Below, one piece after another: positions 25,779-40,773 of a stretch of 64,000 bases of DNA; the stretch's first letter is position 1, and each line of letters begins with the position of its first letter. This stretch comes from Salinibacter ruber DSM 13855 (GTDB lineage: Bacteria; Bacteroidota; Rhodothermia; Rhodothermales; Salinibacteraceae), in the NCBI RefSeq assembly GCF_000013045.1, contig NC_007677.1, positions 2,790,001 through 2,854,000 on the forward strand, written 5' to 3'. Position numbers and translations under genes: made by a program. The notes beneath the pieces were generated by a model, which was given only the letters and a program-made list of their open reading frames with translations, searched no databases and was not told where the DNA came from.

Positions 25779-26459
25779 CTACTCCGCCTCCTCCGCCGTG
25801 GCGCTGGCCAGGTCGGCGACCTTTTCAATCGCCTCGTCCGTCCCCGCCAGAATTAGGGTGTCGGTGTGCCGAAGTGTATCGTCCGGATTGGGGGGTACGA
25901 TCATGTCGTCGATCGTCGTCTCGTGGATGCCCACGACCGATACGCCGTACTCGGCCCGCACGTCGAGTTCGCGGAGCGTGTGGCCCCGCCACTCCTCCGG
26001 CACCACCAGCTCCTGCACACTGAGGTTGCGGCCCATCCGCACGTAATTGACGACCCCCTTTTCCGAAATGCGGCTGGCCAGGTTGAAGGCCGAGTCGCGC
26101 TCCGGGAAGACCGCCTCGGTTGCGCCGAGCTGCCGCATGATGCGGGCGTGGTTGTCCGAAATGACCTTCACGTAGACAACGTCCACCCCCAGATCCTGCA
26201 GCGCCATCGTAGCCAGGATGCTCGCCGTGATGTCGTCGCCGGTGCTCACGACGGCGGCATCCGCCGCCTCCGCGCCAATTTCCTCCAGCGTGGCGGCCTC
26301 CCGCCCGTCCCCCACCGCCGCGCGGGAGCAGTGCGGCGCGATGTCGTCGACGGCCTGCTCGTCGACGTCCACGGCGATGACATCGTGGCCGTGGCTGTAC
26401 AGCGCCTCCGCAACACTGGCCCCGAAGTTGCCAAGGCCTACGATGACGAACCGATGCAT
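25779..26459 (-). CDS. ktrA: KtrA-type RCK regulatory subunit
   Basis: 226 residues from ATG 26459 (MHRFVIVGLGNFGASVAEAL), the start at which the Rossmann domain begins; the open frame extends upstream without support. RCK_N with GLGNFG (8-13) and VIAVDVDEQAVD, then TrkA_C at about 140-215. The sequence style (HRFVIVGLGNFG, IMRQLGATEAVFPER) is that of KtrA, the peripheral subunit of Na+-dependent KtrAB. The ktrB gene lies upstream on the same strand, but an IS1-family element now separates them. Confidence 0.9.
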   Translation of the reverse strand: MHRFVIVGLGNFGASVAEALYSHGHDVIAVDVDEQAVDDIAPHCSRAAVGDGREAATLEEIGAEAADAAVVSTGDDITASILATMALQDLGVDVVYVKVISDNHARIMRQLGATEAVFPERDSAFNLASRISEKGVVNYVRMGRNLSVQELVVPEEWRGHTLRELDVRAEYGVSVVGIHETTIDDMIVPPNPDDTLRHTDTLILAGTDEAIEKVADLASATAEEAE

Positions 26460-26646
26460 AGGGTGTAGAAGTCGGTGTTGAAGCAGATCCGAGTAGGGGC
26501 GAACGGGCCGTAATGTTGTTGCTACGAGCCGGACGAATGGATGATGCGTGCGAGGTGATGCCCGACGCGGGACACGGGACTGGACGGTCGGTGCTCCCCC
26601 ATTCCGCCCGGCCTGCCGTTGAGCTGTGGCAGGACGGCAGGCCCAA

Positions 26647-26654
26647 GACATTTC
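26647..26654 (+). repeat. Left target-site duplication of the IS1-family element
   Basis: GACATTTC immediately precedes the left end of the insertion sequence and is repeated exactly at 27463-27470. Confidence 0.9.
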
Positions 26655-27560: not shown

Positions 27561-29036
27561 CTACCCGATCGACACGTCTTCGTAGGCGTACCGGAAGCCG
27601 CCTTTGATGCGCTTCGGCTCGCGGGCCATCGCCGCCACGAAGGTAAGCGTGCCCACACGGCCAATGAACATGAGGACGACGGTGCACAGGCGCCCCGGCG
27701 TGGTCAACGTGCCCGTCGCGCTCATCGAGAGCCCCACCGTGTTGAAGGCACTGAACGCCTCAAACATGTAGCTGAGGAAGGGCGCAGCGCCGGCCGCCAC
27801 GCCGTCCCCAAACTCGGTCACACTGAAGACGAAGATGGCGACCGTCACGATCCCGAAGGCCCCGATGAAGAGGCTCATGGCCTTCTGGAGGGTGGATTCC
27901 GGAATGGTACGACTGGAAATGCTCGTGGTGGGCCTCCCCTGCAGGCGCGACCAGGCCAGGAGCCCGAGCAGCGCAAAAGTGGTCGTCTTGATGCCCCCGG
28001 CCGTGGAGCCGGGCGAGCCGCCAATCATCATAAAGACGATCGTGAGAAAGTTCGTCTCCGTTTCCACCTGCGCGTAGTCGATGGTGTTGAACCCGGCGGT
28101 GCGCGGGGTGATGCTGGCGAAGAGGCCATTGACGAGGCGCTCCCCGACGGACATCCCCGCCAGCGTGTTGTGCCACTCGAACGCCGTAAAGGCCACCCAG
28201 CCGGCCACGATCAAGAAGGCCGTGGTGCCCAGCACGATCTGGGAGTGCACCGACAGCCGAAAGCGCCCTTCGGCCCGGCGCTTTCGCCGCCACACATTTA
28301 GCTCCTCCAGGGTCAGGAAGCCGAGCCCGCCCACCACAATGAGCCCCATCACGACCATCAGGAGCGGCAGGTTGGCCTGAAAGCCCTCCAGCGACGTCGT
28401 GAACGTCGAAAACCCGGCGTTGCAGAATGCGCTTACCGTGTGGAAGACGGCGTGCCACGCCGCGCCCCCCCACCCGAAGCGGGGCACCCAGGCGGCGTAG
28501 AGCAGAACGCCCCCGATCAGCTCGGCGACGAACGTGAATCGAAGGATCGCCCAGGTGAGCGCCCGGTAGTCGATGTCGTCCACGAGGCTCGTTCCGCTCC
28601 CGGCCAGCTGCTCGTGTCGCAGGGACAGGCGCTGCCCGAGGGCCGCCAGGATGACGGACGTGAACGAGATGATGCCCAGCCCGCCAAGTTGAATGAGCAA
28701 CAGGACGTAGGCCTGGCCCCACGTCGTGAAGTACGTGGCGGTGTCGACCACGATGAGCCCGGTCACACAGACCGCGCTCGTGGCGGTGAAGAGGGCGTCG
28801 ACCCAGTTCAGCGGCGGCCCGGCGTAGAGGCCTGGCAGGGTCATGAACCCGACCGTCCCCGCAAGAATCAGCGTAAGGAAGGCCCCCACGAACAGCTGCG
28901 GCGGACTCAGCGACCGCCACCACGACCAGAGACGCCACAGGACTCCTCTTCGTCCAGGCGGAGGCTGTTGAGAAGACGTGCTCACAGGCGAACCCGACTT
29001 TGACGATTCGGTCTGTACTGCCAGATCGAACAACAT
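27561..29036 (-). CDS. ktrB: KtrB-type potassium uptake membrane subunit (TrkH/KtrB family)
   Basis: 491 residues forming a four-repeat K+ translocation pore. The selectivity-filter glycines lie in V91-T-G-L, C205-N-A-G-F, P311-R-T-A-G-F and N432-T-V-G-L; each follows a short pore helix. GGSPGSTAGGIKTTT (339-353) is the conserved gating-loop region of KtrB. The N-terminal 40 residues are polar and cytoplasmic. It is upstream of ktrA on the same strand; about 285 bases would separate them without the insertion sequence. Divergent from trkA at 29321. Na+-dependent K+ uptake is the known role of KtrAB, which suits a high-salt habitat. Confidence 0.93.
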   Translation of the reverse strand: MLFDLAVQTESSKSGSPVSTSSQQPPPGRRGVLWRLWSWWRSLSPPQLFVGAFLTLILAGTVGFMTLPGLYAGPPLNWVDALFTATSAVCVTGLIVVDTATYFTTWGQAYVLLLIQLGGLGIISFTSVILAALGQRLSLRHEQLAGSGTSLVDDIDYRALTWAILRFTFVAELIGGVLLYAAWVPRFGWGGAAWHAVFHTVSAFCNAGFSTFTTSLEGFQANLPLLMVVMGLIVVGGLGFLTLEELNVWRRKRRAEGRFRLSVHSQIVLGTTAFLIVAGWVAFTAFEWHNTLAGMSVGERLVNGLFASITPRTAGFNTIDYAQVETETNFLTIVFMMIGGSPGSTAGGIKTTTFALLGLLAWSRLQGRPTTSISSRTIPESTLQKAMSLFIGAFGIVTVAIFVFSVTEFGDGVAAGAAPFLSYMFEAFSAFNTVGLSMSATGTLTTPGRLCTVVLMFIGRVGTLTFVAAMAREPKRIKGGFRYAYEDVSIG

Positions 29037-29320: not shown

Positions 29321-30661
29321 ATGAAGGTCGTCGTCATCGGCGTCGGACAGGTCGGCAGCAGCGTGGCCCACGCGCTGGCCGGGGAGCACGAGGTGATTGC
29401 GGTCGACAAGGACCCCGACCGCCTCGAAATGATCCGGGCCGAGACCGACGTGCTCACCTACGAGGGCAACGGGGCCCGGGTCGACGTGCTGAAATCGGCG
29501 GACGTGCGGGACGCCGACCTCGTGGTCGGCAGCACGAGCGACGACCGCAGCAACATCCTGATCTGCAGCACGGCGCGGGCCCTGAACGACGGCGCCTTCA
29601 CCATCGCCCGCGTCACCGAGACGGAATACCTCGCCACCTGGTCCCAGCTCCGCGAGGCCTTCAACGTCGACTACATGGTGGGGGCCGACCACCTCACGGC
29701 CCGCAACATCGTGGAGGTCGTGGGGCTCCCCACCGCCCGCAACGTCGAGCACTTCGGACAGGGACAGGTCGTCATGGCCGGATTTACCGTTCCCGAGGAG
29801 AGCCCGGTCGCCGGAAAGACCGTTCAGGAATTGCGGCTGGGCGACGGTGTGAACCTCGTGGCGGTGTTCGACGACGAGCACATGGAGATTGTCCGCGGGA
29901 CGACCTGCCTCCGGCCCAACATTCGGCTGCTGGTGATCGGGCGGCCGAGCCAGGTGGAGCACTTTGCGGGCACGCTCACGCCCAAGGATCGCGTAGGGCA
30001 GGCCCGTCAAATCATGATCCTGGGCGGGGGCGAGATCGGCTTCCAGACGGCCCGGATGCTCGAACAACGCGGCCTCCAGCCCCGCCTCGTGGAGAAGGAC
30101 CCCGACCGGGCCCAGGCCCTTGCTCAGGAGCTGCCGGACACGCTGGTCCTACAGAACGACGCGACGGACCCGAAATTCCTGCGCCGGGAAGGGGTGGCGG
30201 ACGCCGATCTCGTCGTCTCGGCCCTCACGCCCGACGAGCGAAACCTCCTCACGTCGACGTTGAGCCTGAACCTCGGCGCCGAGCGGGTGCTGTCGGTGGT
30301 GCACCGCGACGTCTACGAGTCGGTCTTTACGAGCAGTGGCATCGAGACGACGGTCAATCCCCGCCGAGAGGTCATCGAGGAGATTCTCCGACACACCCGT
30401 GTGCGGGGCATCGAGAAAATCACCTTCGTCGAGGGCGACCGCGGGGAGGTCGTCGAGGTGGCCCTCACGGCGGAGAGTCCCCTCGTGGGACGCCCGATTG
30501 AAGAGGGCGTCGAAGCGGTGCCGTACAACTTCGTCGTGGGAGCGGTGACCCGGAACGGGGAGGTGCTCATTCCCCGGGGCAAAACGGTCCTGGAGCCTCA
30601 GGACCACCTCGTCCTGTTCGTCGACGCGGAAGAAGCAGACGAGGTCTTGGAGGCACTATGA
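29321..30661 (+). CDS. trkA: TrkA potassium-uptake regulator, full length
   Basis: 446 residues with two complete RCK units, the standard E. coli TrkA plan. RCK1_N: MKVVVIGVGQVGSSVAHAL (GVGQVG 7-12), TrkA_C about 145-220. RCK2_N: IMILGGGEIGFQTARML, TrkA_C about 365-445. Both nucleotide-binding motifs and following acidic residues (VIAVDKD, RLVEKD) are intact. The last codons overlap the trkH start (ATGA at 30658-30661), so the two subunits are made in a coupled way. It gates the TrkH channel in response to NAD(H)/ATP in characterised systems. Confidence 0.95.
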   Translation: MKVVVIGVGQVGSSVAHALAGEHEVIAVDKDPDRLEMIRAETDVLTYEGNGARVDVLKSADVRDADLVVGSTSDDRSNILICSTARALNDGAFTIARVTETEYLATWSQLREAFNVDYMVGADHLTARNIVEVVGLPTARNVEHFGQGQVVMAGFTVPEESPVAGKTVQELRLGDGVNLVAVFDDEHMEIVRGTTCLRPNIRLLVIGRPSQVEHFAGTLTPKDRVGQARQIMILGGGEIGFQTARMLEQRGLQPRLVEKDPDRAQALAQELPDTLVLQNDATDPKFLRREGVADADLVVSALTPDERNLLTSTLSLNLGAERVLSVVHRDVYESVFTSSGIETTVNPRREVIEEILRHTRVRGIEKITFVEGDRGEVVEVALTAESPLVGRPIEEGVEAVPYNFVVGAVTRNGEVLIPRGKTVLEPQDHLVLFVDAEEADEVLEAL

Positions 30662-32157
30662 TTGCAGCTCGTCGACTCCGCCGGGTCAGCAGTGTGCTGG
30701 GGCCGGTCCTAAAGTGGTTCTCGGCCGTCTTTTCGGTGCCGATCGCCACGGCCCTCTACCACGGCACCTCGGTGGTGCCCTTCCTCGTGCCGCTGGGCCT
30801 CTCGTTCGGGGCCGGGGCGCTCGCGGAATGGATCGGGGGCGACAGCGAGCTTACGGTGCAGGACGGATTCCTGCTCGTGACGCTCACCTGGGTCCTGGTC
30901 TCGCTTCTCGGGAGCGTCCCGTACCTGTTGAGCGGCACCGGCAGCTTCGCGACGCCCATCAACGCCATCTTCGAGAGCTTCAGCGGCTTTTCGGCGACCG
31001 GGTCGACGATCCTGCTCGACATTTCGATCGAGAAGCATGGGGCGGCGCTCATGCTCTGGCGGCAGCTCACGCAGTGGATTGCCGGCATGGGCATCCTCGC
31101 ACTGGCGGTCGCCGTGTTGCCGCGCCTGTCGGCCGGCGGCGCCCAGTTTCTGGATGCGGAGGTGCCGGGCCCGCGCCTGGAACGGCTCACGCCCCACATC
31201 GCCGAGACGGCCCGGCGCCTCTGGCTGCTGTACATCGGGTGCTCGGTGGTGCTGCTGGTGCTGCTCCTCGGGGTGCACTACGCCGGGCTCGCCCCCCGCA
31301 TGACGCCGTACCAGGCCCTCGCGCACGTCTTTACCACCATTCCCTCCGGCGGCTTCTCGCCCCAGGCCCGGAGCATCGAGGCGTTCGGCCCTGCGGTGCA
31401 GTGGATCCTCGTCCCGTTCATGTTCGTGGCGGCGATGAACTTTACGCTGCTCTGGCAGGCGATCGTGTCTACCCCGACGGCCCCTGCCCGCGATACGGAG
31501 TTTCGGGTGTACCTTTCGGTCTTTGCCGTCGGAAGCCTCCTGGTGAGCGCCATGCTGTGGGGCAACGGGCAGTTTGCCGGCCTCGAAGAGACGCTCCGGC
31601 ACGGCACGTTCCAGACGGCCACCCTGCTCACCACCACCGGCTACGCGAGCACCGACTTCGCGGTGTGGAGCGAGGAGGTTCTCGTGGTCCTATTGCTCCT
31701 CATGTTCGCCAGCGGGTGCGTGGGCAGCACGTCCGGCGGCCTCAAGCTCATGCGGTGGACCGTGGGCTTCAAGGTGATTGGGCGCGAGCTCTTTCAAATG
31801 ATTCACCCCTCGTCCGTGCGCCCGATGTGGCTGGGGCGCCGCACCGTGAAGGAGCCGGTGGTGCGGGGCATTCTCATCGTGATCCTCACCTATCTGCTGC
31901 TGGTGGTCGGCGGCACCGGCTTTATCGCCGTGGACGCCCACCGCGTGGGGATCGACCTCTCCATCAGCGAAGCCCTCTCCGGCACGCTGGTGGTCCTGGG
32001 CAACATCGGCCCGGGCTTCGGCGCCGTCGGGCCGATGGGCGGGTTCGAGGCCCTGCCGGTCCCGACGAAGGTCTTCATGTGTCTGCTGATGGTGGCGGGC
32101 CGCCTGGAGGTAATGACGTTCCTGGTAGTCCTGAGTCCCAGTTACTGGCGGGGGTAG
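30658..32157 (+). CDS. trkH: TrkH potassium-uptake membrane subunit
   Basis: 499 residues, the K+-conducting subunit partnered with TrkA. The four filter segments are S112-A-T-G-S-T, P229-S-G-G-F-S, T325-T-T-G-Y-A and N449-I-G-P-G-F-G. The gating loop ASGCVGSTSGGLKLMR (351-366) is TrkH-like. The protein starts four bases inside trkA. Together with KtrAB this gives the cell two K+ uptake systems in neighbouring operons. Terminates at TAG 32155-32157 with no obvious terminator. Confidence 0.95.
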   Translation: MIAARRLRRVSSVLGPVLKWFSAVFSVPIATALYHGTSVVPFLVPLGLSFGAGALAEWIGGDSELTVQDGFLLVTLTWVLVSLLGSVPYLLSGTGSFATPINAIFESFSGFSATGSTILLDISIEKHGAALMLWRQLTQWIAGMGILALAVAVLPRLSAGGAQFLDAEVPGPRLERLTPHIAETARRLWLLYIGCSVVLLVLLLGVHYAGLAPRMTPYQALAHVFTTIPSGGFSPQARSIEAFGPAVQWILVPFMFVAAMNFTLLWQAIVSTPTAPARDTEFRVYLSVFAVGSLLVSAMLWGNGQFAGLEETLRHGTFQTATLLTTTGYASTDFAVWSEEVLVVLLLLMFASGCVGSTSGGLKLMRWTVGFKVIGRELFQMIHPSSVRPMWLGRRTVKEPVVRGILIVILTYLLLVVGGTGFIAVDAHRVGIDLSISEALSGTLVVLGNIGPGFGAVGPMGGFEALPVPTKVFMCLLMVAGRLEVMTFLVVLSPSYWRG

Positions 32158-32502: not shown

Positions 32503-34131
32503 ATGGTCGAGTTCGAGCTGCTCCGAAGCTTGGGCATCATGCTGCTGGCCGCCCTCGGGGTCGTGCTCGTAGCCCGGACTGCACGCGTGCCCAACATCGT
32601 GGCGTACATCGGGGCGGGGCTGTTGCTCGGCCCAGCCCTCGGGGTGCTGACGGTAACCCATACCATCGAGCTTATCGCCGAGTTCGGCATCATCCTGCTC
32701 CTCTTCCTCGTAGGGCTGGAGCTGAGCCTCGACAAGATTAAAGCGGTGGGCACGACCGCCTTCGTAGCCGGGGGCGTGCAAATGGGCGGCACGGCGCTCG
32801 GTGGGGGCCTGCTGGCAGGGCTCGTCGGGGTGCCGGTCGTCGAGGCCGTCGTGGTGGCCGTGGCCATTATGTTCAGCAGCACGGTCGTGGTCGTCAAGAT
32901 GCTCGAAAAGCAGAGCGACCTCGACGCGCCGTACGGGCAGATTGCCGTGGGCGTGTTGTTGGTGCAGGACCTCGTGGTGGTGATGGTGCTCACGTTCGTG
33001 GCCGGCCTCGCGGGGCCCGGCGAACTCGCGTGGGCCGACGTGGCCCGGGGCCTCGGGCAGGCCTTCGTGGGAATGGTGCTCCTGGGCGGCCTCATCGCGG
33101 CGGCAGCCCGCTACGTGCTGCCGCCGGCCATTCAGTGGATTTCCCGGATGACCGAGGGCCTGTTCATCTGGAGCCTCTTCTGGTGCTTCCTGGTGGTGCT
33201 GGGGGCCGAGGCGCTGCACCTCTCGCCCGAGCTGGGGGCCTTCCTGGCCGGGATTGCGCTCGCCCAGCTGCCGCAGTGCCACGAGCTGCGCCAGCGCGTG
33301 CACCCGCTGATGAACTTCTTCATCATCGTCTTCTTCGTGTCGCTCGGCCTGCAGATGGAACTGGGGGCGGCCCTCGCGCGGTGGCCCCTTGCCCTCGCGC
33401 TCGCGGCGTTCGTGATGGTGGTCAAGCCGCTGCTCTTCTTTGGGGTGCTGCCCCGGCTGGGGCACGGCGAAGAGACCTCGTTCCGGACGGGCCTCAGTCT
33501 CGCACAGATCAGTGAGTTTTCGCTCATCTTCGGCGCGCTGGCGCTCTCCTCGGGCCTGATCGACGAGGCGCTCCTGTCGGTCATCACGCTGGTCGGCCTC
33601 GTCACCTTCGCGCTCTCCTCGTTTCTGTTGCTCTACAGCGACCGCCTCTACGCCGCCGTGAAGCCGTATCGGCCGCTGGCATGGCTCGGGGCGCGGCAAG
33701 AGGCCCCTGCCCCTCCGCCGGACGGGCTGCAGGGACACGTCATCGTCGTGGGCCTGAACACACTCGGCCGCTGCCTCGTCGACCGGCTGACCGCGGCCGG
33801 CGAAACGGTCGTCGCGGTCGACACCGACCCGGAGAAGCTCGCGCGCCGCTCCGTATCCACCGTCCACGGCAACGCCGTCCACGAGACGACACGGGAGGCA
33901 GCCGACTGGGAGGACGCCAAGCTAGTTGTTTCGAGCCTCAGCATCGAAGGCACCAACAACCTGTTGGCCTACCACGCCCAGCGGGCCGGCGTGCCGTGCA
34001 GCATCCACGCGTTTGATCGCACCAGCGAGAACAGCCTCCGCACCTTCGGGGTGGACCACCTGATTCGGTCGAAGCACGAAGGGGCCCGGCGCCTGCTCGA
34101 TGAGCTCAAATCGAGAGCGGTGTTGTCATGA
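32503..34131 (+). CDS. CPA2-family (Kef-type) cation/proton antiporter with RCK_N domain
   Basis: 542 residues. About 12-13 membrane segments to residue ~395 with CPA2 landmarks: IGAGLLLGPALG, EFGIILLLFLVGLELS, FSSTVVVVKML, the ion-site QDLVVVMVL and LSLAQISEFSLIF. The cytoplasmic domain (about 410-535) is RCK_N with G421-L-N-T-L-G in the nucleotide loop. This is the KefB/KefC architecture, used for K+ efflux in exchange for protons, though Na+ exchange is also found in CPA2. The stop codon overlaps the next antiporter gene (ATGA, 34128-34131), so the two may form a heteromer. Confidence 0.9.
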   Translation: MVEFELLRSLGIMLLAALGVVLVARTARVPNIVAYIGAGLLLGPALGVLTVTHTIELIAEFGIILLLFLVGLELSLDKIKAVGTTAFVAGGVQMGGTALGGGLLAGLVGVPVVEAVVVAVAIMFSSTVVVVKMLEKQSDLDAPYGQIAVGVLLVQDLVVVMVLTFVAGLAGPGELAWADVARGLGQAFVGMVLLGGLIAAAARYVLPPAIQWISRMTEGLFIWSLFWCFLVVLGAEALHLSPELGAFLAGIALAQLPQCHELRQRVHPLMNFFIIVFFVSLGLQMELGAALARWPLALALAAFVMVVKPLLFFGVLPRLGHGEETSFRTGLSLAQISEFSLIFGALALSSGLIDEALLSVITLVGLVTFALSSFLLLYSDRLYAAVKPYRPLAWLGARQEAPAPPPDGLQGHVIVVGLNTLGRCLVDRLTAAGETVVAVDTDPEKLARRSVSTVHGNAVHETTREAADWEDAKLVVSSLSIEGTNNLLAYHAQRAGVPCSIHAFDRTSENSLRTFGVDHLIRSKHEGARRLLDELKSRAVLS

Positions 34132-35705
34132 CGGAGCTTACCATTCTTCTCGGCCTGGCGGCCGCCGGGTACGGGGTGTCGCACTGGACGCAGCTTCCTG
34201 CGATCCCGTTCCTGCTCATGGGGGGCCTCGCCCTGAACGCCACAGGGGCCGTGGGCGACGCCGGATTCGTGGAGGACGTTTTGTTTTTGAGCGTGTCCAT
34301 CCTGCTTTTCGTCGCGGGGACGGACCTCAGCCTCACCCGCGTTGGGCCGTTCAAGAAAACGGCGTTCGTGATCGGCGTCGCGCAGTTCGCAGGCCTCGCC
34401 GCGGCGGCACTGGGGATTGCGTACGGGCTCGACTATGCCCTCACCGACGCGCTCTACCTGGGACTAGCCCTGGCGGCCAGCTCTACGATCGTGGGCGTGC
34501 GCCTTCTCCAGCGCCGTCAGCAGATGTTTGAGCCCTACGGGCGCACGGTGCTCGGCGCACTGCTCCTGCAGGACGTGATCGTCGTGCTCCTTTTGCCGCT
34601 GCTCGTCCGGCTCCCAGACGGATCGGCGGCCGTGCTGGGCAGCCTGGGCGGGACGATCGTTCTCCTCGTGGGGGTCGGGGTCGTGATGAAGGGCGTGGTG
34701 CCACTCCTGCTCAAGCGCGAGCTGGACGCCGAGACGCAGCTGCTCGCGGTCCTCGGCGTGCTGTTCGGGTTCATGGGGGCGGCGGCGTGGCTTGACGTGC
34801 CCCTCTTCGCCGCCGCCTTCCTCGCGGGCGTCTCGCTTTCAGGGTTCCCCTTCAGTGGCATCGTGCACAGCGAGATGCAGCCGCTCTACGACTTCTTCTC
34901 GGCACTCTTCTTTGCGTCGCTCGGGGTGGCGGCCCCCCAGCCGGCCCCTGTCCTCTTCGGCCACGCGGCCCTTTTCGCGGGAGCGGTGCTGGTGCTGACG
35001 CCCCTGATTGTCGCCGTCGTGGGGGCGTGGGCCGGGCTTGTGGCCCAGTCCGCCCTGGAGAGTGGCCTCCTGCTCGCCCAGACGAGTGAGCTCTCGCTGG
35101 TCGTGGGCCTGCAGGCCCTCGTGGCCGGCCAAATTGGGGGGGAGGTTTTTTCGGTGATCGTCCTGACTACGGTCTTCACGATGATGCTCACCCCGCTGCT
35201 CACGAGCGAGACGGTGGTGTGGGAGCTCGTGCGGTGGCACCCTTCGCGTCAGTCAGACGTTCTGTCCGAGGTACCAAGCAACCATGTGCTCGTCGTGGGC
35301 GGCGGACGAAGCGCCCGCCCCCTGCTTCGGCTGCTTCGGGAGTCCAAATACGAGGCCGTCGTGGTGGACGAGGACCCCACCGTGGTGGATCGCCTCCGCG
35401 ACCAGGGCGTGCGCTGTGTGCGCGGCGACGGCAGCGATCGGGCGGTTCTGCTGAAGGCCGGGGGGGCGCAGGCCCGCATCGTAGTGTCCCTTCTCCGTAA
35501 CCCAAAGGCCGTCGAGTCGTTGCTGGACTACGTCGGCGACACCGTTCCCATTCTGGTGCGCGTCTTCGAGGATCACGAGGCCGAGTGGGTTGAGGCCCGG
35601 GGCGGGACCCCCATCCGCTTCGCCCACGCGGCGAGCGATGCGTTCATGGAGTGGTTCCGGCGGGCGCAATCGGCGCGGAGCAAGCAGCCCCCCTCGGGGA
35701 CGTAG
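34128..35705 (+). CDS. Second CPA2-family antiporter with RCK_N domain, coupled to the first
   Basis: 525 residues, same plan as its neighbour but more diverged: VSILLFVAGTDLSL, ASSTIVGVRLLQRRQQ, LLLQDVIVVLLLP and LLLAQTSELSLVVG mark the CPA2 core. The C-terminal RCK_N domain (about 385-510) has VLVVGGGRSARPLLR, in which the last Gly of the dinucleotide motif is Ala. The start overlaps the stop of the first CPA2 gene by four bases. The sequence divergence between the two coupled copies argues for different roles within one complex rather than simple duplication. Confidence 0.88.
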   Translation: MTELTILLGLAAAGYGVSHWTQLPAIPFLLMGGLALNATGAVGDAGFVEDVLFLSVSILLFVAGTDLSLTRVGPFKKTAFVIGVAQFAGLAAAALGIAYGLDYALTDALYLGLALAASSTIVGVRLLQRRQQMFEPYGRTVLGALLLQDVIVVLLLPLLVRLPDGSAAVLGSLGGTIVLLVGVGVVMKGVVPLLLKRELDAETQLLAVLGVLFGFMGAAAWLDVPLFAAAFLAGVSLSGFPFSGIVHSEMQPLYDFFSALFFASLGVAAPQPAPVLFGHAALFAGAVLVLTPLIVAVVGAWAGLVAQSALESGLLLAQTSELSLVVGLQALVAGQIGGEVFSVIVLTTVFTMMLTPLLTSETVVWELVRWHPSRQSDVLSEVPSNHVLVVGGGRSARPLLRLLRESKYEAVVVDEDPTVVDRLRDQGVRCVRGDGSDRAVLLKAGGAQARIVVSLLRNPKAVESLLDYVGDTVPILVRVFEDHEAEWVEARGGTPIRFAHAASDAFMEWFRRAQSARSKQPPSGT

Positions 35706-35818: not shown

Positions 35819-38029
35819 ATGGCCAAGGAACTGGAGCGCGATCTCGGCCTGCCCTCGGTGCTAGCCATCAGCATCGGGGCCATGGTGGGCAGCGGCATCT
35901 TCATTCTCCCCGCCCTCGCCATGAAGATGGCGGGCCCGGCGGTCGTGCTGGCCTACCTCCTGGCCGGGGTGTTGGTGCTGCCGGCGGCCCTGAGCAAGGC
36001 GGAGATGGCCACGGCGATGCCGGAGGCCGGGGGCACGTACGTCTACATTGAGCGCGGGATGGGCCCCCTCCTCGGGACCATCGCGGGCATTGGCACCTGG
36101 TTCTCCCTCTCGTTCAAGGGAGCGCTCGCGCTCGTCGGTGGGGCGCCTTACATCGTGCTCCTGTTCGACGTGCCGCCCCAGGCGCTGGCCCTGGGCATTG
36201 CGGGCGTGCTGATCGTGGTGAACCTCTTGGGCGTCAAGCAAACCGGGCGCATCCAGGTGGCCCTGGTGGCGGTGATGCTGGCGGCCATGGTGTGGTTCGT
36301 GGGCGGCAGCCTCGGCGACGTGGACCCGGTGCGCTTCGAGGGCTTTTTTGATGAGGGGATCGGGGGGCTACTGGCGGCCACGGGCTTCGTGTACGTCTCG
36401 TACGCCGGGGTGACAAAAGTGGCGAGCGTGGCCGAAGAGATCGAACACCCGGACCGCAACATTCCGCTGGGCCTCCTCGGCTCGCTCGCCTTCACGACGC
36501 TGCTCTACGTGCTGGTGGTCACCGTCATCGTAGGGGCGGCGCCCACGGCGGGCCTTGCCGGCTCCTCGACGCCGGTGGCCGACGTGGCGGGCAGCACCCT
36601 CATTCAGTGGGGCGTGCTCGTGGTGGTCGCGGCCGCCATCCTGGCCCTCGTGAGCACCGCTAATGCGGGCCTCCTCTCCGCCTCGCGCTACCCGTTCGCC
36701 ATGAGCCGCGACAAGCTGGTGCCCGACGCGCTCCAGCACGTGAGCGACCGGTTCGACACACCGACCACCGCCATCACGGTCACGGGCGGCGTCGTGCTCG
36801 CCATGATTGCGTTCGTCCCGATCGACGACATTGCGAAGCTCGGCAGTGCCTTCAAGATCCTCGTCTTTATTCTCGTCAACCTCGCCCTCGTCGCCTTTCG
36901 CGAAAGCGACCTCGACGACTACGAGCCCGCGTTCCGGGACCCGATGTACCCGTGGACGCAGGGGGTCGGCGTGCTTGGGGGCCTCGCCCTGCTCAGCCAG
37001 ATGGGCCTGGTGCCGCTCGTGGGGGCCGTTCTGATCACCGGGGCCGGGGCGCTCTGGTACGGGGCCTACGCCCGGCGCCGCGTGGGGCGGGAGGGCGTGG
37101 TGCGGGACGAACTGCGGCGCCGCGTGGGGCAGCAGGCCGCCGAGCGCACCCGGGTCGCCCTCGATACCGGCCAGCGGGCGGACCGCGTGGTCGTAGGGAC
37201 CACCGAAGACCTGCGGCCGGACCGGGAGACGGCGCTGGTGGAGGTCGGGGCCGCCCTCACCGGGGCCTTCGAGGGGGGCCTCACGGTGGTGCGCTTCGAC
37301 GCGGTCCCCGACCAGTTGCCGCTCGACTCCGCCGCCGAGGTGCAGTCCCCCGACGATGTGGACTTCGAGACCCGGATGGACCGCTTTGGGGCGTCGGTGG
37401 ACGGGCCGTTCGAGTACGGGGAGGTCGTCAGCCACGACGTGCGCCACGCGGTGGCCAACTTCGCCCGGCACCACGCGGTGGACCTGCTGGTGCTGGAGCG
37501 GACCCTCTCCGCCGACCGCTCCTGGCTGGACGAGCGCGACCTGGACTGGATCTCGCGCCACTGCTCCGCCGACCTCGTGCTGGTGGAACCGACGCCCCTC
37601 GCGGTGCTCGACCGCATTGCCCTGGTGACGGACAACGGGCCCTTCGATCCCCGAAAGGTGGAGCTGGCCAACGGGCTCGCGGCGGCCGCCGGCGCGAGCC
37701 TCGTCCTGGGGCACGCCGTCCCCGCCGACGCGACCGAGGACCAACGCGCCACCGTCCGCACCTACCACGAAGACCTGATGGGCCTGTGCACGGTGCCGGT
37801 CGAGTCGAACATCGTGGGCACGACGACACCGGCAGCGATGGCGCGGGCCGTGTCCGCCGCCGACCTTGTCGTCGTGGAGAGCGACGCGGCCTGGTGGGCC
37901 CGTCTCCTGGACAACCGGGAGCCGCAGCGCATTGCGGGCGCCTTCGGCGGCCCCGCCATCGTGGTGCGGCCGCAGCAGGCCGAAGGCCCCAGCCCGGTGC
38001 GCCGCCTGCTCGAACGGGTTGCGTTTTAA
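35819..38029 (+). CDS. APC-family amino-acid permease fused to two Usp domains (second copy)
   Basis: 736 residues. TM1 signature SIGAMVGSGIFILPA, then EAGGTYVYIERGMG and EEIEHPDRNIPLG; 12 segments to about residue 415. Two Usp-type alpha/beta domains follow, about 450-593 (HHAVDLLVLERTLS, ADLVLVEP) and 597-722 (RIALVTDNGPFDPRKVELA, ADLVVVESDAAWWARL, PAIVVRPQQ). Neither shows a full ATP-binding G-x2-G-x9-G motif. It lies 113 bases after the CPA2 pair and 168 before another APC fusion. It is related in plan to 13852-16194, but the permease part is closer to that of 38198-40333 (shared SYAGVTKVASVAEEIE / SYAGLTKVASVAEEVK). Confidence 0.87.
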   Translation: MAKELERDLGLPSVLAISIGAMVGSGIFILPALAMKMAGPAVVLAYLLAGVLVLPAALSKAEMATAMPEAGGTYVYIERGMGPLLGTIAGIGTWFSLSFKGALALVGGAPYIVLLFDVPPQALALGIAGVLIVVNLLGVKQTGRIQVALVAVMLAAMVWFVGGSLGDVDPVRFEGFFDEGIGGLLAATGFVYVSYAGVTKVASVAEEIEHPDRNIPLGLLGSLAFTTLLYVLVVTVIVGAAPTAGLAGSSTPVADVAGSTLIQWGVLVVVAAAILALVSTANAGLLSASRYPFAMSRDKLVPDALQHVSDRFDTPTTAITVTGGVVLAMIAFVPIDDIAKLGSAFKILVFILVNLALVAFRESDLDDYEPAFRDPMYPWTQGVGVLGGLALLSQMGLVPLVGAVLITGAGALWYGAYARRRVGREGVVRDELRRRVGQQAAERTRVALDTGQRADRVVVGTTEDLRPDRETALVEVGAALTGAFEGGLTVVRFDAVPDQLPLDSAAEVQSPDDVDFETRMDRFGASVDGPFEYGEVVSHDVRHAVANFARHHAVDLLVLERTLSADRSWLDERDLDWISRHCSADLVLVEPTPLAVLDRIALVTDNGPFDPRKVELANGLAAAAGASLVLGHAVPADATEDQRATVRTYHEDLMGLCTVPVESNIVGTTTPAAMARAVSAADLVVVESDAAWWARLLDNREPQRIAGAFGGPAIVVRPQQAEGPSPVRRLLERVAF

Positions 38030-38197
38030 CGTCTGCGAGGGGCTGGACCGGTCGCTCGGCCGACGGGGTCCTAATTGCGGGCGCGCGGACCGGTGCCCTT
38101 GGGAGAGACTCGTCAAGTTTTGGGGAGGCGGGGAACCGTGCCCCCCGCCTTGGTCCTTTACGTCAACTCATTTTCCTCTGATTTGCCCGCTACAAAT

Positions 38198-40333
38198 ATG
38201 GCTTCGGGCTCCTCGGACCTTCAGAAAACCCTCACCCTCTACGACGTCTACTCGATCAGTACGGGGGCAATGTTCAGCTCCGGGTTCTTTCTGCTGCCCG
38301 GCATCGCGGCGGCGGAGACAGGGCCCTCGGTCATCCTCGCGTACCTGGTGGCGGGCCTGCTCATCCTGCCGTCCATGTACAGCATGGCGGAGCTGTCGAC
38401 GGCCATGCCCAAGGCGGGGGGGACGTATTACTTTCTCGACCGGGCCCTCGGCCCGCTCGCGGGCACGGTGGGCGGCCTGGGCACCTGGCTCGCGCTCGTC
38501 TTCAAGAGCGCGTTCGCCCTGATTGGGATGGGCGCCTACCTCGCCATCTACGCCGACGTGCCCATCAAGCCCCTGGCGGCGGCCCTCACGCTGGCCTTCG
38601 GGGTGCTCAACGTCGTCGGGGCCAAGGAGAGCAGCCTGCTGCAGCGCGTGCTGGTGACGATCCTGGTGGGCGTGCTCGGGTTCTACGCCGCACAGGGTGT
38701 CCTGTCGGTCTGGGGCGGGCAGAGCGCGGTCGGCGGGGCGGCCGGCGAGTTCACGCCCTTCTTTACGGAGGGGGCGCGCGGCTTTCTCGCCACCATCGGG
38801 ATCGTCTTCGTCTCGTACGCCGGCCTGACGAAGGTGGCCAGCGTGGCCGAGGAGGTCAAGAATCCGGACCGCAACATTCCCTTGGGCATGGGCCTGTCGC
38901 TGCTCACGGCCACGGGCATCTACGTCGTGGGCGTGGCCATCATGGTGGCCATCCTGCCGGCCACGGACCTCCACGCCGACCTGACGCCCGTCTACACCTC
39001 CGGCGAGGTGTTCTTCAACTGGCTCCCGTACACCCTGGGCCCGATCCTGATCGTCGTTGCGGCCGTCGCGGCGTTCGCCTCCACCGGCAACGCCGGCATC
39101 ATGTCGGCCTCCCGCTACCCGCTGGCCATGGCCCGCGACCGCCTGCTGCCCGACGGCTTCGCCCGGATCGGTCGCTTCAACACGCCCACCCGCTCGATTG
39201 TGGTGACGGTGGCGCTCATGCTCGTCATCATCTTCGTGCTCTCCGAAGAGGGCGTGGCGAAGCTGGCCAGTGCGTTCCAGCTCCTGATCTTTGCGCTCCT
39301 CAACTTCGCGGTCATCGTGATGCGGGAGAGCGAAATCCCGTCCTACGCGCCCGGCTACCGGTCGCCGCTGTACCCGTGGGTGCAGGTGGCGGGCATCGCC
39401 ATTCCCTTCTTCCTCATCTCGGAGATGGGGACGCTGGCCATCGTCTTCACGGGCGTGGTGGTGCTGGTCGGCGTGGGCTGGTACTTCTACTACGCCTCCG
39501 ACGTCCCCCGCGAGGGTGCGATCTTTCACCTCTTTGCCCGCCTCGGCAAGCAGCGCTACGACGGCCTCGACCGGGAGCTGCAGACCATCCTTGAGGAGAA
39601 AGGGGTGGGGCACGACACCGCGTTTGATCGGCTCGTGGCCGAGTCGGATGTCATTCACCTCGACGAGCCGGTTCCCTACGCGGACGTGGTGGAGGACGTG
39701 TCGGGCCGGCTGGCGGAAGAGCTTGGCCTCTCGACCGAAACCCTCGAACACGGGTTTCTGGAGGGGGCCCCCTACAGTGCCGTTTCCGTCTCCCACGGGG
39801 CCGCCCTTCCCTACTGTCGCCTCGACGGGATCAGCGAGTCGAAGATGGTGATGGTGCACTGCCAGTCCGGGATCTGCGTCGACCTGGAGGACGAGATCGA
39901 AGAGCTGGACCGCTCCGAGCCGGTCTACGCCTTCTTCTTTCTCGTCAGCCCGAAGGACGACGAGGGCGAGCACCTCCGCACGCTGGCGACCCTCGCCAAC
40001 CGGACCGACGAGGAGCAATTCCTCGTCGAGTGGCGCGCGGCCGCCGACGAGCAGGAGGTCAAGGAGAGCCTGCTCCACCACGAACGCTACCTGACGCTCA
40101 ACCTCCTGTCGGGGACCAACACGGACGAGTTTATCGGCCAAACCGTGACCGACCTGAACCTGCCGGCGGGCGTGCTGGTGGCCCTCGTGCGGCGCGACGG
40201 ACAGATCACCGTCCCCTCCGGGGCGACGCGCCTGGAGGAAGGGGACCGCGTAACCATCATCGGCAATCCGGCGGGCATCGACCGGCTGTACGAACTGTAC
40301 CGCGCGGGCGAGCAGGAAGGGGTCGTCCAGTAG
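38198..40333 (+). CDS. APC permease fused to a degenerate PTS EIIA-2 domain and a TrkA_C domain
   Basis: 711 residues from ATG 38198 (MASGSSDLQKTL); a TTG frame extends upstream but is not family-like. Residues 1-435 are a 12-TM APC carrier (SISTGAMFSSGFFLLPG, KAGGTYYFLDRALG, EEVKNPDRNIPLG). Residues about 475-635 match the PTS EIIA type 2/PtsN fold: LDEPVPYADVVEDVSGRLAE, FLEGAPYSAVSVSHGAALPY, then YAFFFLVSPKDDEGEHLRTL. The phosphoacceptor motif 'h-P-H-x-R/K' reads L-P-Y539-C-R, so the histidine is replaced by tyrosine and PTS phosphorylation should be impossible. Residues about 645-695 are TrkA_C (TVTDLNLPAGVLVALVRRDG, EEGDRVTIIG). The permease therefore carries two sensory modules normally tied to K+ control. 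Confidence 0.85.
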   Translation: MASGSSDLQKTLTLYDVYSISTGAMFSSGFFLLPGIAAAETGPSVILAYLVAGLLILPSMYSMAELSTAMPKAGGTYYFLDRALGPLAGTVGGLGTWLALVFKSAFALIGMGAYLAIYADVPIKPLAAALTLAFGVLNVVGAKESSLLQRVLVTILVGVLGFYAAQGVLSVWGGQSAVGGAAGEFTPFFTEGARGFLATIGIVFVSYAGLTKVASVAEEVKNPDRNIPLGMGLSLLTATGIYVVGVAIMVAILPATDLHADLTPVYTSGEVFFNWLPYTLGPILIVVAAVAAFASTGNAGIMSASRYPLAMARDRLLPDGFARIGRFNTPTRSIVVTVALMLVIIFVLSEEGVAKLASAFQLLIFALLNFAVIVMRESEIPSYAPGYRSPLYPWVQVAGIAIPFFLISEMGTLAIVFTGVVVLVGVGWYFYYASDVPREGAIFHLFARLGKQRYDGLDRELQTILEEKGVGHDTAFDRLVAESDVIHLDEPVPYADVVEDVSGRLAEELGLSTETLEHGFLEGAPYSAVSVSHGAALPYCRLDGISESKMVMVHCQSGICVDLEDEIEELDRSEPVYAFFFLVSPKDDEGEHLRTLATLANRTDEEQFLVEWRAAADEQEVKESLLHHERYLTLNLLSGTNTDEFIGQTVTDLNLPAGVLVALVRRDGQITVPSGATRLEEGDRVTIIGNPAGIDRLYELYRAGEQEGVVQ

Positions 40334-40773
40334 GCACGCGATGCAGTCTCGTGGACGCCCGGGCGAGGCATGTCCGCCGCCCGCCGTACAGGCCGCGCCC
40401 GAGCCTACGACCGCCCCTGCCCTTCTCGGAGAACCCGCCCTGCGACATATACACATGGGGCCCATCTCGGCGTTGCCCTCTCATCCCGCCACCGCCAAAA
40501 AGCCCTCGGCGGAGAAGGCAGGGAAACGTCCACTTTCCAGTTTGGCATGTTTGTCGAATTCCGACTTGACTTATCGGGCATGTTTTTTGATAGTACTGTT
40601 CCCCCAATCACACGAAAGACCTTAGGGCTCGTGTGCCCGCCCCAAGACTCGGCTCTCGTCAATGCCCCTCGGCACAGCGCCTCGGGGCCGTCGGGAGGCC
40701 CTGGACGCCAAAGCCCCAACGCAAAAAGCCGTTTTCGGGAACAGACTGACCTTGCGACTTCACTCCTTCCCCC
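40334..40773 (+). promoter_or_regulatory. Intergenic region before the sensor kinase, with a good sigma-70-like promoter
   Basis: 440 bases without a supported gene. An unusually AT-rich patch contains TTGACT (40566-40571), a 17-base spacer with a T-run and GATAGT (40589-40594), the best promoter match in the window; the kinase start is 180 bases further on. 'gGCATGTTT' occurs twice nearby (40547 and 40578 regions) and might be a protein-binding half-site. Confidence 0.4.

Follow-up and report, generated by a model that had tools for sequence, protein, structure and literature searches.

In Escherichia coli the free-standing EIIA-Ntr protein PtsN is known to regulate K+ transport, binding TrkA, YcgO and KdpD in its unphosphorylated form, and mechanistic models of this action differ (PMC13104625). 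Phosphorylation weakens the binding of PtsN to YcgO, and the effect has been modelled through an RCK domain (PMC11808508). In LacS the EIIA-type domain is fused to the transporter, and its phosphorylation by HPr sets transporter activity (PMC10710835). Here we describe a gene of Salinibacter ruber DSM 13855 (NCBI RefSeq assembly GCF_000013045.1, contig NC_007677.1), located at 38198-40333 on the plus strand of a 64,000-nucleotide window (contig positions 2,790,001 to 2,854,000; coordinates below count from the first nucleotide of this window), whose product is predicted to join an APC membrane domain, a PtsN-like EIIA domain and a TrkA_C domain in a single chain, with a tyrosine at the position of the phospho-histidine.

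The gene is an uninterrupted open frame of 711 amino acids that runs from ATG to a stop codon; a TTG at 38075 is a possible alternative upstream start by frame alone, and a scan for promoters and terminators upstream of the gene gave nothing useful. In Pfam searches the protein matched AA_permease (PF00324; 155 bits, residues 17-415), AA_permease_2 (145.8 bits), PTS_EIIA_2 (PF00359; 41.1 bits, residues 512-625) and TrkA_C (61.8 bits, residues 642-700), the last two against curated cut-offs of 27. From these matches and the structural models described below, a CAT/ApcT-like membrane domain was assigned to residues 8-434 (38219-39499), an EIIA-Ntr-like domain to residues 484-625 (39647-40072) and a TrkA_C/RCK_C domain to residues 630-703 (40085-40306); conserved linker helices, modelled with partly low confidence, occupy residues ~437-482 (39506-39643). 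The motif LPYCR begins at residue 537, which puts the tyrosine at residue 539 (codon TAC, 39812-39814, placed by arithmetic). This is the arrangement of permease, EIIA-like domain, TrkA_C and Tyr539 that a first-pass annotation had read from the letters. A 765-residue open frame on the minus strand (38168-40465) spans the whole gene and is likely a mechanical by-product of base composition.

The last 298 residues were modelled with AlphaFold2 from 43 sequences; the mean predicted local distance difference test (pLDDT) score was 77.3, falling below 50 over most of the initial 58 residues modelled. The model matched the EIIA-Ntr proteins of Neisseria (2a0j; Z score 19.1, root-mean-square deviation 2.4, 146 residues aligned) and E. 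coli (1a6j; Z 18.7), in keeping with the annotation's expectation of a PtsN-type fold, and at lower rank mannitol-type EIIA (Z ~14) and the cytoplasmic domains of SLC4 proteins (Z ~12-14). Since the match to E. coli PtsN by phmmer alone was weak (E 0.00018), it is the comparison of the predicted structure that is decisive for the EIIA-Ntr fold. The domain thus has the fold and the profile of an EIIA and lacks the phospho-accepting histidine. Foldseek matched the TrkA_C part to a TrkA chain (3jxo) and to an RCK_C structure titled 'RCK domain with cda' (5f29). In a model of the whole protein (mean pLDDT 85.2) the membrane part aligned with GkApcT (6f34) over 419 residues (Z 45.4, root-mean-square deviation 2.2) and with CAT1 at Z 44.9; on sequence and model together, it is predicted to be a CAT/ApcT-type APC transporter.

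Relatives were collected in two sets. In the first, 394 genomes of the sampled phylum, which we take to be Bacteroidota in the wide sense, were searched with a 277-residue tail as query; at least 137 had some match, many of them to TrkA_C alone, and 80 fetched regions together with the Salinibacter window yielded 83 different complete proteins of APC-EIIA-TrkA_C type, spread over 64 genomes, so that the architecture occurs in at least 64 of the 394. The second, a pattern search of named genomes, returned 332 tail relatives, of which 80 were kept, and 70 of these 80 loci gave 71 full-length proteins, with records from Ignavibacteria, Melioribacteraceae, Desulfuromonadales, Latescibacterota, Gemmatimonadota, Phycisphaerae and others. 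The combined 154 rows include 10 named-set proteins identical to phylum-set ones, leaving 144 distinct proteins. The architecture is widespread and has relatives beyond the phylum. A search of the open-licence PubMed Central literature found no description of it, a weak absence. By tblastn the tail module had no match in a plasmid collection from which records near the source genome may be left out, and a plasmid-borne module was rejected on this result.

Across the 144 proteins the phospho-site residue is histidine in 124, tyrosine in 16, phenylalanine in three and glutamine in one; all of the exceptions fall in the phylum set (63, 16, 3 and 1 of 83), and histidine is found in all 71 named-genome proteins. 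The TAC codon for tyrosine is present in all seven sampled genomes of the window's family, f1, presumably the Salinibacteraceae, and a strain-specific mutation or sequencing error was rejected on this account. The first-pass annotation had held that homologues with an intact histidine would point to such a mutation; they are indeed the large majority, but the change is fixed in the sampled f1 genomes and has recurred elsewhere. Its term "degenerate" likewise suits the EIIA domain of this lineage and does not suit the architecture as a whole.

Quick maximum-likelihood inference on 98 proteins, 94 of them different, with the site columns left out and no root inferred by the program, gave a tree that requires three changes to account for its 20 non-histidine proteins. 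One lies on the starred branch to f1, and a second at a starred clade of f16 (Balneolaceae, we assume), a paralogue clade in which 13 of 14 members have Tyr, Phe or Gln; the third accounts for L108, the lone histidine member inside that clade. The four nearest relatives of f1, which belong to the same order, all read LPH. Histidine is very likely ancestral at the site, because it is the state of the other lineages (the tree root having not been inferred), and the tree is best read as at least two independent losses, one in f1 and one in a single f16 paralogue clade. Histidine and non-histidine copies stand in tandem in three f16 genomes (G077, G139 and G187; loci L070, L076 and L077) and at separate f16 loci in G147, G183, G258 and G360. 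Position 554 follows the phospho-site closely: arginine is present in 123 of the 124 histidine-type proteins vs 4 of the 20 others, and the window protein has a histidine there (codon 39857-39859).

The loss did not accompany loss of the phosphotransferase system (PTS). A search for HPr and EI genes, proposed as a check in the first-pass annotation, found one of each in the 3.59-Mb Salinibacter genome, which has two EIIA_2 matches, this protein and a separate canonical PtsN with the motif GLPHAK. Because HPr, EI and canonical PtsN are all present, a missing relay does not explain the missing histidine, and absence of the relay from the genome was rejected as the cause of the tyrosine. HPr and EI were each detected in 67 of 68 searched genomes, including both in all 64 with the APC version, and a separate full-length PtsN-type EIIA_2 match of at least 100 bits was found in 68 of 68. 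In the exception, G058, neither HPr nor EI was detected; this genome still has a PtsN-type EIIA, and the only version of the module that it carries is the antiporter-borne EIIA-TrkA_C. HPr occurs in 282 of the 394 phylum genomes, despite the statement of PTS absence from Bacteroidetes in a 2008 survey (PMC2405797). The HPr gene, ptsH, lies 12-23 kb from the APC-EIIA gene in 25 of 30 same-contig pairs, the two genes being on different contigs in 34 of the 64 genomes. This proximity was rejected as proof of function and read as inherited gene order, because 23 of the 25 close pairs belong to the one family f16 and because genomes in which the fetched loci are non-histidine only (G171, G127, G313, G065 and G046) also keep ptsH near. 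In addition, hisS is the gene immediately downstream of the free ptsN in the Salinibacter genome (L001), and at 25 of 70 loci it stands within ~3 kb of the gene for the APC-EIIA protein.

By analogy with the PtsN systems, we lean on balance towards reading the tail as a cis-acting PtsN-like regulator of its own transporter, which would have been ancestrally phospho-switchable and would have become phospho-independent in the Salinibacter lineage. In the histidine-type members, EI and HPr would phosphorylate the attached EIIA domain, and the transporter would receive this phospho-state by way of the linker and RCK_C, with the transport step itself reading the phosphoenolpyruvate (PEP)/nitrogen relay. 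In the Salinibacter lineage the EIIA domain could not take phosphate at the tyrosine site and would be a permanently unphosphorylated-like docking and allosteric module, similar to the unphosphorylated PtsN that acts on TrkA and YcgO in E. coli but working in cis; because it has Tyr539 and lacks Arg554, the window protein is predicted to be blind to the relay. Control of the tyrosine version would rest on what the RCK_C domain or a partner binds, which might be K+, a nucleotide such as cyclic di-AMP (c-di-AMP), or another transporter, and its activity would be linked in this way to the cation balance of a cell probably rich in KCl. The Salinibacter genome encodes a DAC domain (the c-di-AMP cyclase domain), and neither this gene nor the 5f29 match shows c-di-AMP binding by the predicted RCK_C domain. 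The proposal in the first-pass annotation of a regulatory module that is not a phosphocarrier remains the best reading, given the EIIA fold, the lost acceptor, the purifying selection reported next and the cation transporters nearby.

A decaying relic or inert spacer, with only TrkA_C of consequence, would also account for an EIIA domain that in this lineage has lost His, Gly527, Pro530 and Arg554, and the seven f1 genomes retain 97% of conserved positions in TrkA_C (9 columns) and 69% in EIIA (35 columns). Ratios of nonsynonymous to synonymous substitution rates (dN/dS, omega) were calculated by pairing the window gene with its counterparts in three congeneric genomes and in genomes G384 and G305. 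Within the genus omega for the EIIA stretch was 0.06-0.13 (0.077, 0.127 and 0.060), below that of TrkA_C (0.10-0.20) in all three comparisons, with the membrane part at 0.06-0.07, and the EIIA domain is under purifying selection within the genus; the EIIA comparison with G384 gave an intermediate 0.27. With the tyrosine identical and full-length open frames in all seven f1 genomes, we consider a relic unlikely. Phosphorylation might instead continue in the window protein, by HPr or another kinase, at Tyr539 or at His592 (codon 39971-39973), which aligns with the second conserved histidine (His120) of E. coli PtsN and is kept in 139 of the 144 proteins and 7 of 7 in f1, but the arginine at 554 that accompanies His539 is gone, and we regard this as very improbable.

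The membrane part might move K+ or another inorganic cation, in the manner of KimA or SLC12 proteins, and not an amino acid. The TM5 (fifth transmembrane helix) lysine of ApcT has a functional role. By an eye reading of the alignment, Leu156 of the window protein stands at that position and a lysine, Lys103 (codon 38504-38506), is found in TM3 where ApcT and CAT4 have small residues; Lys103 is kept in 142 of the 144 distinct family proteins. Because of these two residues the substrate is not to be assumed to be an amino acid, and the pair possibly represents a moved proton-coupling charge. Besides this non-standard site, cation transport would fit the matches of the membrane part to SLC12 and KimA folds at Z 36-40 and the island of Trk and antiporter genes described below. 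Against it, CAT/ApcT was the best match both by sequence and by fold (Z 45), and the K-Cl cotransporter model of NCBIfam scored 42.6 bits vs 194 for the best model, amino acid transporter 2A0306 (TIGR00909), both below their cut-offs (556.8 for the latter). A cation substrate thus seems rather improbable.

Several observations weigh against the phospho-independent cis-regulator that we favor. No phosphorylation, transport or binding datum was found for any family member. The EIIA domain of G305 is 45% identical to that of the window, has no PF00359 match and gave an omega of 0.52 at a dS of ~1; it may be relaxing there, as a relic would. The co-occurrence of HPr with the APC version (Fisher p 6e-11) is not to be taken at face value, since the test ignores ancestry and shared ancestry confounds it, and in four f1 genomes with both genes on one contig ptsH is 513 kb to 2.6 Mb from the gene. 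Two genomes in which HPr was not detected, G211 (LPH, L110) and G058 (LAH, L069), keep the histidine in antiporter-borne EIIA domains, where it may be kept for another reason. The coordinated substitutions around the site, otherwise an argument for this reading, count against it in part. Gly527, Pro530 and Arg554 are near-invariant in LPH-type proteins, and each is present in 4 of 4 members of the f1 sister clade and 0 of 7 in f1, with 0, 0 and 4 of the 13 other non-histidine proteins retaining them. Gly527 and Pro530 are also missing from many histidine-type proteins with N, K, Q or S in place of proline before the histidine (present in 16 and 29 of 37, with Arg554 in 37 of 37), because of which the alignment ties the loss of Arg554, and not that of the other two, to the loss of the histidine. 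Co-change of these three positions with His539 offers only three independent contrasts, too few for any test to reach significance. Finally, an antiporter neighbor was seen in 1 of the 70 named-genome loci (flanks of up to 5 kb), which are mostly of other lineages, so that this association does not hold generally.

In the window the gene is preceded, on the same strand, by a series of genes for TrkA (29321-30661; two TrkA_N and two TrkA_C domains), the K+ transporter subunit TrkH (30658-32157), two Na_H_Exchanger-TrkA_N antiporters (32503-34131 and 34128-35705), all by Pfam, and a second APC permease (35819-38029) that ends 168 bases before it. The C-terminal half of this neighbor looks USP-like by eye, with no Pfam Usp match, and it may be of the USP-APC kind; it appears, again by eye, to share with the window protein an FK in TM3. 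The minus strand encodes a further TrkH (27561-29036) as well as a protein resembling TrkA (25779-26651). Three of the four Na_H_Exchanger matches of the Salinibacter genome (E 1e-10) fall in the window, and the Salinibacter ruber genome paper reportedly describes an island. We take the organism to have a salt-in habit, with high internal KCl probable. A salt-in gene set of Salinibacter has been described (PMC13384644).

A Na_H_Exchanger antiporter was found within 4 kb of the gene at 30 of 70 phylum loci, a count for which the queries were partly drawn from the same loci and in which the loci are not independent. By comparison, 12 genomes, of which nearly all have such a neighbor, together gave 34 Na_H_Exchanger matches in ~46 Mb, only 2-4 per genome. 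A gene matching the L197 query (Pfam Na_H_antiport_1, NhaA type) was also observed in the fetched region at 7 of 70 loci (L067, L078, L083, L088, L092, L106 and L109). In relatives of the same order EIIA-TrkA_C is itself the tail of Na_H_Exchanger-TrkA_N proteins (L064 and L068 by Pfam, L069 and L072 by similarity). In the tree these four antiporter-borne modules share a single starred set with those carried by the APC proteins of f1 and the sister clade, so a transfer of the module between transporter families is very likely. Other antiporters have a C-terminal EIIA_2 without TrkA_C (L110, L112, L062 and L093, by Pfam). L063 is an antiporter with EIIA_2, by PF00359 match and similarity, and it and L062 stand beside a free Usp protein; some antiporters of this group (L062, L063, L093, L110 and L112) are near an APC-EIIA gene.

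A broader and distinctly more tentative suggestion is that EIIA-TrkA_C serves as a portable input module, linking the PTS-Ntr relay directly to the transporter that bears it, whether APC or CPA, and that it has become phosphate-blind in some lineages. In genomes with both, histidine and non-histidine copies might then operate as partners, perhaps in a hetero-oligomer, and in f1, where only the blind version was found, the transporter might be uncoupled from PEP and nitrogen state and answer only to that of cations or nucleotides. In any case, a family with a PtsN-type and an RCK_C domain covalently attached to one transporter gives natural histidine/non-histidine pairs, ready for asking what effect the unphosphorylated EIIA surface has on an RCK_C-controlled transporter.

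EIIA-regulated secondary transporters are already known as a kind. LacS of streptococci and lactobacilli is likewise a secondary transporter with a cis-fused EIIA, phosphorylated by HPr (PMC10710835). It differs in being a GPH transporter with an EIIA-Glc-type domain and a phospho-site in use, whereas the window protein shares the fusion and has an APC membrane domain and a tyrosine, lacking the phospho-site by which an EIIA phosphocarrier is defined. To our knowledge LacS has no RCK_C domain. With the YcgO K+/H+ antiporter and free PtsN of E. coli the likeness is that a single transporter is subject to both a PtsN-type and an RCK domain and that the unphosphorylated state acts (PMC11808508); there, however, PtsN works in trans via a CorC domain on a CPA1 protein and keeps its phospho-site. 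Unphosphorylated PtsN also binds the K+ transport proteins TrkA and KdpD (PMC13104625), and by analogy the window domain may work like unphosphorylated PtsN, but those are separate proteins, whereas the window protein has EIIA and TrkA_C joined to an APC transporter within a single chain. The SLC4 anion exchangers band 3 and NBCe1 carry an EIIA-fold domain on a transporter (PMC4664831), to which the present family is a bacterial parallel. Theirs is N-terminal and eukaryotic with no PTS, so that only the fold is in common. We know of no phospho-carrier role for the SLC4 N-terminal domains. GkApcT and the CAT proteins share the membrane fold and sequence, but those of their solved chains that were matched lack an EIIA-TrkA_C tail, and ApcT has a TM5 lysine where the window protein has Leu156 together with Lys103 in TM3. 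Some archaeal APC permeases, finally, carry a C-terminal cytoplasmic regulatory pair of two USP domains (PMC3673472), a place that EIIA-TrkA_C takes in the window protein.
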